Assembly (NCBI GenBank): GCA_027681045.1
Contig: JAQDCK010000006.1
Coordinates: 34,303 to 98,302, forward strand
Length of the DNA stretch: 64,000 nucleotides
Origin: Lactobacillaceae bacterium AF64-9pH9TA
GTDB lineage: Bacteria > Bacillota > Bacilli > Lactobacillales > Lactobacillaceae
Reading direction: 5' to 3'
Positions 1-3,455 of this stretch are shown here, piece after piece. Numbering within the stretch: the first letter of the stretch is position 1; each line of letters begins with the position of its first letter. A program made the position numbers and the translations under genes. The notes under the pieces are model-generated. The model made no database searches and was not told the DNA's origin. It worked only from the letters and a program-made list of their open reading frames with translations.

Positions 1-2590
1 TGATCGCCTGGTCAATATTCGGAGTCACCGCATTTGGCAAGCGGATCAATTCTTGAGCTATTTCATTTTCTTCCTTTTCAGAAACCTTATCACCATTCAT
101 TAGGTAATATTCGCCGGAAATTTCTTTAAGCAGAATAACTTCAATACTTTCCCGAATATCACGAACAGCCGCGGACGCTTGATTATCGTCGAGATTTCCT
201 TTATCCCGATTTAACCAACGATGAATCGTCAAATCTTCAACCCAATCTCTATCTTCGAGGTCATCATCTTCATCTGGATAAACCGGATCATTAATTTGAA
301 AGCTTTCCGCCTTGCTCTTTTCGCGATTACGGTCCACATTCAATTTGTCACGTGCCTCATCCAAATTTTCGACTTGGTCGTCAGTGTCATCATCGTAAAC
401 TAATTGAACCAAGCAAGAAATATCATCAGGAAGCTGAATTTTTTGTGGCAAAAAGTGTTCGGTCTTTTGCAGATAATACTTCTCATAAACAGCTTCATTG
501 GCTGGTCCATAATCATCCGTGTCTGGCTTCATTACATACAACTGCCGTTTTTCCAATCCTTTAGGACGGGAAATTTTATGCCGGTGCAGCCGGCCGGCTC
601 TTTGCAAAAGCAGGTCAATTGGTGCAATATCGGTAAACATGACATCAAAGTCAATATCCAGCGATTGTTCAAGAACTTGGGTACCGATTACGATCAGTTT
701 ATCTGGTCGCTTTCCTTTCTTGCCGATCAAGCTTTGCAACTCTTTTTCCAGCCTGGACCGATCAGTTGCCAGAAAAGCCGAATGCAAAACCAAGCACTGG
801 CAATCTTGCCCAACTAAACCGGCAAATTCTTGTGCCCTCTTAACCGTGTTAACAATAATTCCAGCGATACCACCATCTTTAATTTTATCGTTAACCTTTG
901 CTAAGACTTCTGTCGGCTCATCGTTAATGTAGCTAACCTGTAGTTCTCTAGGTTCTACTTTTGGTCCGAAATCATCATATTGATGTAATTTTTGGCCATC
1001 AAGAATGCTCAGCAACGGATATGCCTGGTTGCTTTCCCAGCCTTCATCCGCCTGCACTTCATCTTCACAATCATACTTTCCTTCAAAATAAGATTGAATT
1101 AAACTGTTTCGCTTTTCTTTCGGTAAAGTAGCCGACAGAATAACCACTGGAACATGATATGCGCCTAACCACTTCAAGGCTTTTGACAAATAACTTTGCA
1201 TGTACATATCGTAGGCATGAACTTCGTCAATGATCACAACCTTGTTACTAAAGCCAAGGTGCCGTAAGAAAAGGTGCTTCTGCTTGAGTCCCATCAAGAG
1301 CAAGTTGTCGATCGTCCCAACCGCAAAATCCGCTAAGATTGACTTCTTACCTGAAAACCAGGAGTTTACAGTAACAGTTCCTGCATCTAATTCTTCAGCT
1401 TCAATATCTTCTGCCCGCGGCAAGTCAGTATACCGAGAATTCCATTCTGCTTTACCGTGGAGCAGCTTGATATCCGGATTGATGCCCTCAATGCCAGCAA
1501 TTTTCGTCAGCCAGGAGTTAACCCGGTCAAACATTGCATTAGTAGTTGCTTGGGTTGGCAGGCCAATGTACACGCCCGTTCTGCCAGTTGCATAAGCTAA
1601 TTGCTCCGCAGCAGTGAGCGCAATCTCGGTCTTACCGATCCCCATCTCTGCTTCGATGATTACCAGACCTGGGTCAACTGCCTCCTTAACATGCTCTTCC
1701 ATAGCTGCTTGTATTTGCCGCGGCTTAAAAGAAAAATGTTGTTCATAATAATCATCAACATTTGCTACTTCTTCTGGAATCCACGCGTCATTGATTGCCC
1801 AAGTAGAAATGGCATTTTGGTAGCGGGCCTTCATATCCAAATCATTAAAGCCTTGGTCTAATCCAATCAGATTAAACATCGGTTTATTAGGGTCATTGTT
1901 CAAACAAGTACTGGAGGCTAACCAGTCAGCCATGATCAGTAACCCCTCCAGGATAACTGCTTCCGGCTGGTTAACCGGTGGTACTTCACTGATATTCTCA
2001 TATCCAGCCAGTTCCAGCCCATAATCAATCAGTTCCTTTTGAACATCTTTCCAAGGCTGCTGAATTTCTTCATCGTTATCAGCTTGGTAGTAGTTTGATG
2101 TAAAAACATCTATCTGTTCCTCTTGGTCGCCATTTTGCGGTTTGCCGTGGTGTCCGCCAACAATAGCAGCTATCGTTTCATTCAACCCTGCTCTTTCCAG
2201 TATCGCCTCACCAGCGCGAGCATGCGGTGACTTGCTGCGGCTTGGCAGACTCACGTCATTTAAGCTCTTAAAGGAATGACTAACCAATCGGTGAATCAGC
2301 TCTTCATCCAATTGATCGTCATGGTTATATGATTCCTTGGTTTGAAAAGCAGGAGTCGCCTTGCCAAGGTCGTGAATATAGCAAAGGAATAACACCAATT
2401 TTGACATTTCAGCATCGCAGATCCGAGTAGTCAGCATGCTTCTTTGTCCTTCACTTAGCCAAGAATTATAGAGCCAATGTCCAACATTCATGGTGTCCAC
2501 CAGGTGTGCCACTAATGGCAGCCAGCGCTCATCACCATCTTGGTTTGATTTCTTTCCCCATAAAGATAGGGCCTCTTTGCTTAGTTTCAT
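1..2590 (-). CDS. cas3: Type I-E CRISPR nuclease-helicase Cas3 (partial, runs off the left edge)
   Basis: Cas3 is recruited by target-bound Cascade and degrades DNA with its HD nuclease while unwinding with its SF2 helicase. The frame is open from ATG 2590 (AAGGAATT ribosome site just upstream) to position 1, 863 codons with no stop. This is nearly full length for a type I-E Cas3, so only the C-terminus is missing. I see His29 and an HDLGK motif at residues 73-77, a downstream HHG, a Walker A region MGIGKTE near residue 316, a DEVH box (IIDEVHAYD) near residue 452, and the helicase C-terminal QRAGRLHRH motif. The rest of the cas operon should lie beyond the left edge. Its leader contains a site matching the seed of the nearby mini-CRISPR, suggesting autoregulation (inference). 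Confidence 0.93.
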   Translation of the reverse strand, partial: MKLSKEALSLWGKKSNQDGDERWLPLVAHLVDTMNVGHWLYNSWLSEGQRSMLTTRICDAEMSKLVLFLCYIHDLGKATPAFQTKESYNHDDQLDEELIHRLVSHSFKSLNDVSLPSRSKSPHARAGEAILERAGLNETIAAIVGGHHGKPQNGDQEEQIDVFTSNYYQADNDEEIQQPWKDVQKELIDYGLELAGYENISEVPPVNQPEAVILEGLLIMADWLASSTCLNNDPNKPMFNLIGLDQGFNDLDMKARYQNAISTWAINDAWIPEEVANVDDYYEQHFSFKPRQIQAAMEEHVKEAVDPGLVIIEAEMGIGKTEIALTAAEQLAYATGRTGVYIGLPTQATTNAMFDRVNSWLTKIAGIEGINPDIKLLHGKAEWNSRYTDLPRAEDIEAEELDAGTVTVNSWFSGKKSILADFAVGTIDNLLLMGLKQKHLFLRHLGFSNKVVIIDEVHAYDMYMQSYLSKALKWLGAYHVPVVILSATLPKEKRNSLIQSYFEGKYDCEDEVQADEGWESNQAYPLLSILDGQKLHQYDDFGPKVEPRELQVSYINDEPTEVLAKVNDKIKDGGIAGIIVNTVKRAQEFAGLVGQDCQCLVLHSAFLATDRSRLEKELQSLIGKKGKRPDKLIVIGTQVLEQSLDIDFDVMFTDIAPIDLLLQRAGRLHRHKISRPKGLEKRQLYVMKPDTDDYGPANEAVYEKYYLQKTEHFLPQKIQLPDDISCLVQLVYDDDTDDQVENLDEARDKLNVDRNREKSKAESFQINDPVYPDEDDDLEDRDWVEDLTIHRWLNRDKGNLDDNQASAAVRDIRESIEVILLKEISGEYYLMNGDKVSEKEENEIAQELIRLPNAVTPNIDQAI

Positions 2591-2665
2591 TACAATTCCT
2601 TCAACATGTAAAAACTTTCATTCACAATTCAAATTGTACTAACTAATTTTACCATATAACCGCTT

Positions 2666-2854
2666 TCATGACTGAGGGCGTTTTGCCCACTTTTCAAGTA
2701 AAATTTGACATAATTTGTGAACTGCTTTTTCCCCATGGTAGCCGCCATTAAACGGCTTCTCGAATTGAAACTCTGGCCTTATCTTACTGAGATCGTGAAG
2801 ATAACAAGTCAAGCTTGCTAATTCCCACAAATCTGCATCCTTTGTATTCTTCAT
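2666..2854 (-). CDS. 62-aa HD-motif mini-protein resembling a Cas3 N-terminal fragment
   Basis: This short ORF sits 75 nt upstream of cas3 on the same strand. Its stretch CYLHDLSKIRPEFQ parallels CYIHDLGKATPAFQ of the neighbouring Cas3, and the preceding residues (DADLWELASL) also align with that protein. This is most simply a remnant of a second, diverged cas3 whose remainder was lost. The Gly of HDxGK is Ser, and later HD-nuclease histidines and the helicase are absent, so nuclease activity is unlikely. A GAGGA sequence 6 nt before the ATG could still allow translation. It may persist only as the leader of the cas3 transcript. The 12 nt immediately before its ATG are identical to the mini-CRISPR spacer seed. 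Alternative: a genuine small regulator. Confidence 0.55.
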   Translation of the reverse strand: MKNTKDADLWELASLTCYLHDLSKIRPEFQFEKPFNGGYHGEKAVHKLCQILLEKWAKRPQS

Positions 2855-2866
2855 ACAGTATCCTCA
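2855..2866 (-). promoter_or_regulatory. Predicted Cascade-guide target site in the cas3 operon leader
   Basis: On the minus strand this is TGAGGATACTGT, identical to the first 12 nt of the mini-CRISPR spacer at 3098-3109. It is preceded by GGAA, so the PAM position reads AA as in several type I-E systems. It lies between the ribosome site and the ATG of the 62-aa ORF and about 120 nt downstream of the predicted cas promoter. Pairing stops after 12 nt (two isolated further matches), so Cascade could bind here without licensing Cas3 cutting and act as a roadblock. The match is seen directly; the function is inferred from CreR/CreA systems. Confidence 0.6.
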
Positions 2867-2988
2867 TTCCTTCTTTATAACGCAAAACTTTTAACTCATA
2901 TGTGAGCCTTTAACAGTTGCACATCCAATATTTCAGTGAACAAAATTTACAGTTTCCTCATTCAGTAAATCATCCGTCCACAATTTGA

Positions 2989-3017
2989 ATTCTATCACGT
3001 AATATTCTATTGTGCAA
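2989..3017 (-). promoter_or_regulatory. Predicted promoter of the HD mini-ORF/cas3 operon
   Basis: Reading the minus strand, TTGCAC (3017-3012) and TAGAAT (2994-2989) are separated by 17 nt, a good sigma-A-type promoter. It is the best candidate upstream of the mini-ORF and cas3, and it lies only a few bases downstream of the terminator of the mini-CRISPR transcript. Confidence 0.5.
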
Positions 3018-3020
3018 GCC

Positions 3021-3053
3021 AAAATAAAAATGCCTTGCCAAAAGTGACAAGGC
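3021..3053 (-). terminator. Terminator of the mini-CRISPR transcript
   Basis: Minus strand GCCTTG, a 10-nt loop and CAAGGC, followed by ATTTTTATTTT. The 5' arm of the stem is formed by the last bases of the second degenerate repeat, so repeat and terminator are merged. Confidence 0.6.
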
Positions 3054-3137
3054 CCCCCACTTACGTGAGGAAATGTTATTGATCCCCATCTAGACACACA
3101 GTATCCTCAGGGTCACCCCCATTTACATGAGGACTAA
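3048..3137 (-). CRISPR. Degenerate mini-CRISPR: two type I-E-like repeats and one spacer (CreR/CreA-like)
   Basis: Repeat 1 (3137-3110, minus) contains CCTCATGTAAATGGGGGTGA and ends in CCC. Repeat 2 (3075-3048) contains CCTCACGTAAGTGGGGG and then diverges into the terminator stem. Both have the form of type I-E repeats (a core ending in GGGGGTGAtCC), and the period is 62 nt, against the usual ~61. The 34-nt spacer is 3109-3076. Its first 12 nt match a site in the cas3 leader at 2855-2866. The unit has its own extended -10 promoter and terminator, giving a predicted RNA of about 113 nt. Repeats this diverged are not a working adaptive array; the layout is that of a cas-regulating or antitoxin guide RNA. 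Confidence 0.65.
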
Positions 3138-3141
3138 AGTA

Positions 3142-3168
3142 AGTATAGCATAGAAAGCAAAGGATCAA
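3142..3168 (-). promoter_or_regulatory. Extended -10 promoter of the mini-CRISPR RNA
   Basis: The minus strand reads TGCTATACT (TATACT at 3147-3142 with the TG extension). A TTGATC at 3168-3163 is a possible short-spaced -35 (14-15 nt). Predicted initiation near 3135 would place the first base of the transcript at the start of the first degenerate repeat. Confidence 0.5.
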
Positions 3169-3366: not shown

Positions 3367-3455
3367 GGAGAGTTGGCAGAGCGGTAATGCAGCGGACTCG
3401 AAATCCGCCGAACCAATGTTGAATTGGTGCGCAGGTTCAAATCCTGTACTCTCCT
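3367..3455 (+). tRNA. tRNA-Ser (anticodon CGA)
   Basis: Class II tRNA. The acceptor GGAGAGT pairs with ACTCTCC. The anticodon stem GCGGA/TCCGC encloses a CTCGAAA loop with anticodon CGA (reads UCG). A long variable arm (CCAAT/ATTGG) and the T-arm TTCAAAT follow. CCA is not encoded. The discriminator base appears to be T rather than the G usual for bacterial tRNA-Ser. A TTGCTT...TATAAT promoter lies just upstream (about 3333-3357). Confidence 0.9.

Follow-up and report, generated by a model that had tools for sequence, protein, structure and literature searches.

A 64,000-nucleotide stretch of DNA (the window) carries a mini-CRISPR unit on its minus strand, upstream of a type I-E cas3 gene. 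The guide of this unit very probably leads Cascade to two AA-flanked sites in the cas3 leader and thus represses the cas operon, in a feedback loop of the CreR type. The sequence holds the unit, both sites, their PAM, and a covariation of guide and site between species that carries a Cascade-pairing footprint. A CreR-type reading had already been put forward in a preliminary description of this DNA; it is supported here with corrections, and the evidence for it is the cross-species covariation of seed and target.

Organization of the mini-CRISPR unit

The unit is composed of a promoter, a repeat, a spacer, a second repeat, and a terminator (Table 1), and re-reading of the sequence bore out every element coordinate given for it in the preliminary description. 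Its predicted promoter, TATGCTATACTTACTTTAG, is common to the window, two related contigs (L129 and L130), and the Lactobacillus nasalidis locus L010, and is identical in all of them. The terminator stem overlaps the 3' end of the second repeat. The predicted RNA folds more stably than shuffled sequences (z -4.15) and forms hairpins at the two repeats and at the terminator; in the same predicted fold the guide also pairs with itself and with the handle. A search of the region against Rfam returned only a tRNA-Ser and one sub-threshold match overlapping that tRNA.

The array repeat of L. nasalidis is identical to psiR1 at 22 of 28 positions and to psiR2 at 19 of 28; for the array repeat of another relative, G042, the values are 19/28 and 16/28, respectively. 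Unrelated array repeats had been named beforehand as an observation that would speak against the unit, and the repeats of these two relatives are not of that kind; the comparison covers their arrays, the window strain's own array lying outside the window. The arrangement of a repeat-like, a spacer-like, and a second repeat-like element beside a cas operon is that of CreR.

Table 1. Features of the mini-CRISPR unit, the cas3 leader, and cas3 in window coordinates.
Feature	Position	Strand	Basis or remark
Type I-E cas3, truncated by the window edge, 863 codons visible	1..2590	-	Pfam Cas3_HD E 2.6e-45 and other Cas3 domains
Possible second promoter P2, -10 TACAAT just before cas3	2633..2638	-	Sequence; weak
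62-aa ORF like a piece of the Cas3 HD domain	2666..2854	-	Pfam Cas3_HD E 0.0028, below cut-off
Predicted proximal operator, AA-TGAGGATACTGT	2855..2868	-	Exact 12-mer of the guide start
Predicted distal operator, AA-TGAGGAAACTGT	2949..2962	-	Sole mismatch to guide nt 1-12 is nt 7
Predicted cas promoter P1, extended -10 TGA-TAGAAT (TGATAGAAT), possible -35 TGCACA from 3016	2989..2997	-	Sequence
Intrinsic terminator, 9-bp stem 3053-3032 followed by a T run	3022..3053	-	Sequence
Degenerate repeat 2 (psiR2)	3048..3075	-	Repeat identity and hairpin fold
Spacer-like guide, 34 nt; conserved seed nt 2-6 and 8-12	3076..3109	-	Cross-species site comparison
Degenerate repeat 1 (psiR1), predicted 5' handle GTGACCC	3110..3137	-	Repeat identity and hairpin fold
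Predicted mini-CRISPR promoter, extended -10 TGC-TATACT	3142..3150	-	Sequence

cas3 and its leader

The cas3 of the window is a genuine Cas3. It is the only gene of the type I-E operon in the window, and the rest of the operon lies outside. In G042 the operon comprises cas3, cse1, cse2, cas7, cas5, cas6e, cas1, and cas2, with Cse1 scoring below the curated cut-off, and the array repeats extend over ~6 kb. At the end of this operon (L145:6513-7382), Cas2e is fused to a DnaQ-like exonuclease domain.

The 62-aa ORF in the leader has relatives of 63 aa in the protein collection, its reading frame is broken in both L129 and L130, and it is a probable remnant of a Cas3 HD domain. Predicted promoter P1 has a counterpart in L129, L130, and L. 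nasalidis, and the -10 element of P2 aligns with TTACAATTTAAATTGT in L. nasalidis. In addition, the palindrome ACAATTTGAATTGT and its half AATTCAAATTGT occur at window 2624-2637 and 2980-2991, near both predicted promoters, and a similar palindrome, ACAATTTAAATTGT, precedes cas3 in L. nasalidis; this element is a possible protein operator.

Two target sites for one guide

The first 12 nucleotides of the guide, TGAGGATACTGT, had been reported to recur at 2866-2855 after AA, and they do. The account of this match given earlier needs three amendments. The site is not the single target, since a second and better conserved one, AA-TGAGGAAACTGT, lies at 2960-2949. It is indeed situated in the cas3 leader, but it abuts the ATG of the 62-aa Cas3-HD-like ORF and not that of cas3 itself. 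Moreover, pairing was said to fail after position 12; nt 13 is mismatched at this proximal site, but nt 14-15 match again. The predicted register is the handle GTGACCC and one unpaired nucleotide, followed by seed nt 2-6 and 8-12.

The motif AATGAGGANACTGT occurs exactly twice in the 64 kb, both times on the coding strand of the cas3 leader. None of 100 dinucleotide shuffles of the window reached two copies, and among 20,000 dinucleotide-shuffled leaders one site was present in 2 and two sites in 0; nt 7 was allowed to vary in either test, which was decided once the sites had been seen. Against either site the guide matches at 16 of 34 positions, concentrated on the PAM side. As in CreR, the guide thus has a seed match beside a PAM in the cas promoter or leader region, and its complementarity is partial and far short of full length. 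The distal site would start ~22 nt downstream of the predicted start of the P1 transcript, whose position is itself deduced from the promoter.

Contigs L129 and L130, both from IMG/VR, carry the locus at their ends, with cas3 95-96% identical to that of the window (best segment). L. nasalidis is the nearest named relative; the first 154 residues of its Cas3 are 84% identical. The window, L129, L130, and L. nasalidis L010 all carry the same distal operator, although their guide nt 7 is T, T, C, and C, respectively. The proximal operator reads CGAGGATATTGT in L129 and CGAGTATACTGT in L130, with 2 of 12 positions changed in each. The distal site is thus kept in these relatives, whereas in L129 and L130 the proximal one is degraded and the adjacent HD-like ORF broken, so that 2960-2949, and not 2866-2855, probably serves as the main operator in this species. 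Both sites of L. nasalidis are intact: the first follows a comparable promoter, and the second covers the cas3 ribosome-binding site and ATG. The spacer of L. nasalidis differs from that of the window from nt 13 on, with the seed kept. The cas3 frame of L129 (4350-7116) is interrupted, an ORF of 722 aa being overlapped by a second one in a different frame, which reads as a frameshift or sequencing error in one strain, and L130 has a cas3 ORF of 920 aa.

The position of the proximal site bears on a different function, in which the guide would be an antitoxin of the CreA type that silences a toxin (CreT) between the unit and cas3 and makes Cascade addictive. The anatomy is the same, a type I-E CreTA lies between cas3 and casA in Citrobacter rodentium (according to the available part of PMC12055562), and the proximal site falls at the start of the 62-aa ORF. 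However, this ORF looks like a fragment of the Cas3 HD domain and is broken in L129 and L130, and in L. nasalidis, L036, and L038 a site coincides with the cas3 start or immediately precedes it. A toxin-antitoxin module is considered improbable and was rejected, the only ORF seen at the operator being the Cas3-HD-like remnant; very short ORFs and toxic RNAs fall outside the scope of that look.

A tRNA-Ser gene lies at window 3367-3455, with counterparts at ~3477-3565 in L129 and ~5006-5094 in L130. In both contigs the host cas locus is right beside the tRNA-Ser, as judged by sequence match, and lysin- and holin-like ORFs, recognized by eye, lie beyond it. As these contigs end in the cas locus there and carry the lysin- and holin-like ORFs on the opposite side, prophages probably integrate at the tRNA-Ser, a few hundred bases from the mini-CRISPR. 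A mobile origin of the region itself was rejected, because the two IMG/VR hits are contigs with the host cas locus at their ends; the search of the region against phages and plasmids gave no match.

Survey of the lactobacillus family

A DNA search with the whole region found one weak match in relatives, at the terminator, and the cas3 protein was therefore taken as bait. At E 1e-60 or better, it was detected in 24 of 75 genomes of the genus and in 73 of 397 sampled genomes of the lactobacillus family. The upstream regions analysed numbered 94, namely 93 cas3 loci and the window. From one set of 34 loci, just the three of the lactobacillus family (L002, L007, and L010) entered the unit survey. 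L037 and L059 were left out for want of a cas3 start. The pairs L007/L062 and L002/L065 each seem to come from a single genome, and both members were retained among the 94 regions; L060, a duplicate of L010, was dropped from the guide counts.

Units were sought with a repeat-pair detector that is blind to the guide and that returned 0 units in 282 mononucleotide-shuffled regions. A slightly stricter threshold gave 30 isolated units in 29 regions, hence 29 guides without L060; this strict set includes L045 and L117, which were added by hand because a spurious third repeat had hidden them. Another 11 units, the relaxed set, were hand-picked from a list. Spacers of ordinary arrays served as the control, with 631 readings from 34 loci; many arrays were read in both orientations, so the distinct spacers are fewer. 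The seed positions scored, nt 2-6 and 8-12, were chosen after the first species had been seen, and a plain 18-nt search provides a check free of that choice. Taken by itself, such unweighted scoring lacks the power to judge individual guides, of which 8 of 30 were at or below 5/500 shuffles.

Guide and site change together

Fifteen of the 29 strict guides have an AA-flanked site that matches at all 10 seed positions, and the best sites of these units lie 13-276 nt before cas3 on the sense strand. The same match was reached by 2 of the 631 array-spacer readings, one of which (L095) is an artefact, a spacer that matches a truncated copy of itself. Covariation between seed and target, proposed earlier as a check, is hence positive across species. 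The guides differ between most species, and some close relatives share one (L040/L042; L050/L051/L053). Of the 93 other regions, 2 also hold a 10/10 site for the window guide, and these are presumably the two copies from L. nasalidis.

The other 14 strict units comprise 7 at 9/10, 5 at 8/10, 1 at 7/10, and 1 at 6/10. Among those at 9/10, guide and site change together in the group of L040, L042, L045, and L046; the AT-rich guides of L040 and L042 each score 9/10 also against 11 of the 93 foreign regions, and in 16 of 300 shuffles. The 9/10 sites of L048 and L052 look like chance. In the relaxed set, seven of the 11 units reach 10/10 and two reach 9/10, and the two that fail at 6/10 are L007 and L062, probably one genome. 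Other families of the order, sampled with 14 regions from 13 genomes, yielded 3 units, each with a 10/10 site. Two of these belong to a single genome and were detected only with relaxed thresholds; the other 11 regions were without a unit. Units without a convincing site are L047, L048, L052, L064, L087, L097, L119, L124, the far pair of L053, L007, and L062.

The unit of L049 lies at -439 and is inverted relative to cas3, and its guide keeps a 10/10 site 46 nt before cas3, so the orientation of the unit is not needed. Regulatory spacers are often 19-24 nt long (e.g., L040, L098, L115, and L124) as against ~33 nt in arrays, so that the Cascade backbone would be shorter or the 3' handle unusual. 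The second array spacer at 10/10 is the terminal one of L061, the last of 19 seen; its site has AA, lies 285 nt before cas3, and is mismatched at nt 1, 7, and 13. This terminal spacer is ~330-360 nt upstream of cas3, and its matched site follows a -10-like element.

The placement of the operators also bears on the direction of the effect. The Cascade-bound guide could activate, or act on RNA or on the unit's own promoter, instead of repressing cas3; sites just upstream of the unit in L069, L079, L072, and L077 (and in L055 at 9/10) would suit an action on its own promoter. On the other hand, the best site precedes cas3 on the sense strand in the window as in the 15 strict 10/10 cases, and in L069 and L079 the site, immediately before the unit, comes after an extended -10 that looks strong, so that unit and cas3 may share one autoregulated cas promoter. 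Such an action is a little less probable again than that of an antitoxin, and repression of cas3 is preferred.

Pairing footprint of Cascade

The footprint was derived from the plain 18-nt identity search, in which neither the PAM nor the position carried weight and related species were not down-weighted. AA flanked 21 of the 29 best sites (background 0.122), and 28 of the 29 were on the cas3 sense strand. Nineteen AA sites lie within 400 nt; among them, nt 2-6, 8, 9, 11, and 12 match in every case, nt 14 in 18, and nt 10 in 15, whereas the matches fall to 6 at nt 1, 9 at nt 7, and 7 at nt 13. None of 20,000 permutations had so few matches at nt 1, 7, and 13, and the result was again 0/20,000 for nt 7 and 13 alone.

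These free positions can be placed on the known geometry of the complex. By the available part of PMC3890593 on the 29/32 and 28/33 repeat/spacer conventions, the first spacer nucleotide after a 28-nt repeat is the last handle nucleotide of E. coli, and PMC5965380, also available in part, describes crRNA bases 6, 12, 18, 24, and 30 as flipped out. Shifted by one, bases 6, 12, and 18 become spacer nt 7, 13, and 19. Furthermore, in the mutagenesis of CreA, as far as the accessible text of PMC8501985 gives it, seed nt 1-5 and 7-11 were needed and 6 and 12 dispensable; the paired set of the lactobacilli in E. coli numbering is 1-5 and 7-11, equal to that of CreA. As the free nt 1, 7, and 13 are thus the handle base and flipped-out bases, the footprint is taken to indicate that selection on these operators is exerted by Cascade itself.

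The same data weigh on two further explanations. The unit could be the decayed remnant of an old CRISPR array with a historical or accidental seed match, and its repeats are degenerate, with the second running into the terminator; yet guide and site covary between species with pairing, PAM, and the spacing of the free positions kept, promoter and handle are conserved, and array spacers hardly ever reach such a match, which makes a remnant very unlikely. An ordinary defensive mini-array against phages, with an incidental self match, is the least likely of all: the 34-nt length fits and Cascade could use the spacer, but a phage-targeting spacer was rejected on the absence of any match in 50,697 phage records at E 10 (a weak test for so short a query), and nt 13 onward differ from L. 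nasalidis while the seed stays.

Proposed mechanism and significance

In the CreR-type loop preferred here, the unit would be transcribed from its own promoter and Cas6e would process the RNA after psiR1, giving a guide RNA that would begin GUGACCC-UGAGGAUACUGU. The processed guide would load into Cascade, and a short R-loop at the distal site would block RNA polymerase just inside the transcript as a roadblock. A second R-loop at the proximal site would block the polymerase at the gene start. Cleavage would not be expected, because only ~12-15 positions on the PAM side pair. An excess of array crRNAs, or a shortage or inhibition of Cascade, would dilute the guide complex and let cas expression rise. 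The operators of other species, by eye, lie over the stretch upstream of an extended -10 (e.g., L098, L120, L126, and L117) or directly after a -10-like element (e.g., L040, L045, and L046).

A broader proposal, to which we give somewhat less than an even chance, is that a fast-evolving CreR thermostat is common in the type I-E systems of lactic acid bacteria, with operator and guide coevolving under the footprint of Cascade. The L. delbrueckii-like group, to which the window probably belongs, would have a twin-operator version with an in-transcript roadblock and a gene-start site, and guides could derive from the oldest array spacer, as L061 may illustrate. Dairy-type lactobacilli probably tune CRISPR defence with its own effector, which is of relevance to the phage resistance of starter cultures and to CRISPR tools that make use of native Cascade. 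Guides and operators that coevolve in pairs also form a natural data set for the minimal seed of repression by type I-E Cascade without cutting, and they make the CreR idea testable by point mutations in many species.

Comparison with known systems

The crRNA-like mini-arrays of Shmakov et al. 2023 (NAR) reportedly consist of two repeat-like elements around a spacer that partly matches cas-gene promoters. They would resemble the window unit in both the two repeat-like elements and the partial match.

Racr, the phage RNA anti-CRISPR described in the available part of PMC10651486, is likewise a stand-alone repeat-like RNA. In contrast, Racrs are solitary viral repeats acting against Cas proteins, and the window unit has two repeats and sits in a host cas locus, so it is not a solitary virus-encoded repeat. 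The CreTA of Citrobacter rodentium, from what is accessible of PMC12055562, is closer in being type I-E, with a repeat- and spacer-like guide and a PAM-flanked partial match within the cas locus; it controls a toxin between cas3 and casA, whereas the window unit lies upstream of cas3. CreA of the type I-B CreTA of Haloarcula (PMC8501985, in part) shares the psiR1-psiS-psiR2 anatomy and, after a shift by one handle nucleotide, the same seed set. CreA represses a toxin, but the predicted target of the window unit is the cas3 operon and no toxin was recognized, and repression of an adjacent toxin by the guide is not the pattern found, one of the two targets in L. nasalidis being the start of cas3.

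Among the matches listed in a literature search by title and opening abstract, such units were undescribed in Lactobacillus, which is not proof of absence. CreR is already recorded in type I-E: a review, in its available part, has CreRs acting in type I-B, I-E, and V-A (PMC13131331), and the unit is therefore not a new principle. CreR is described in general in the accessible parts of PMC12737573 and PMC12948488. The likeness to CreR, the cas-regulating RNA of Liu et al. 2023 (Cell Host Microbe), consists of a mini-CRISPR beside the cas genes, a partial match to the cas promoter region, and predicted autorepression. The window unit differs in its two predicted operators, one in the predicted transcript and one at a gene start. 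These twin operators and the array-terminal guide of L061 may be the points that are unexpected to a specialist.
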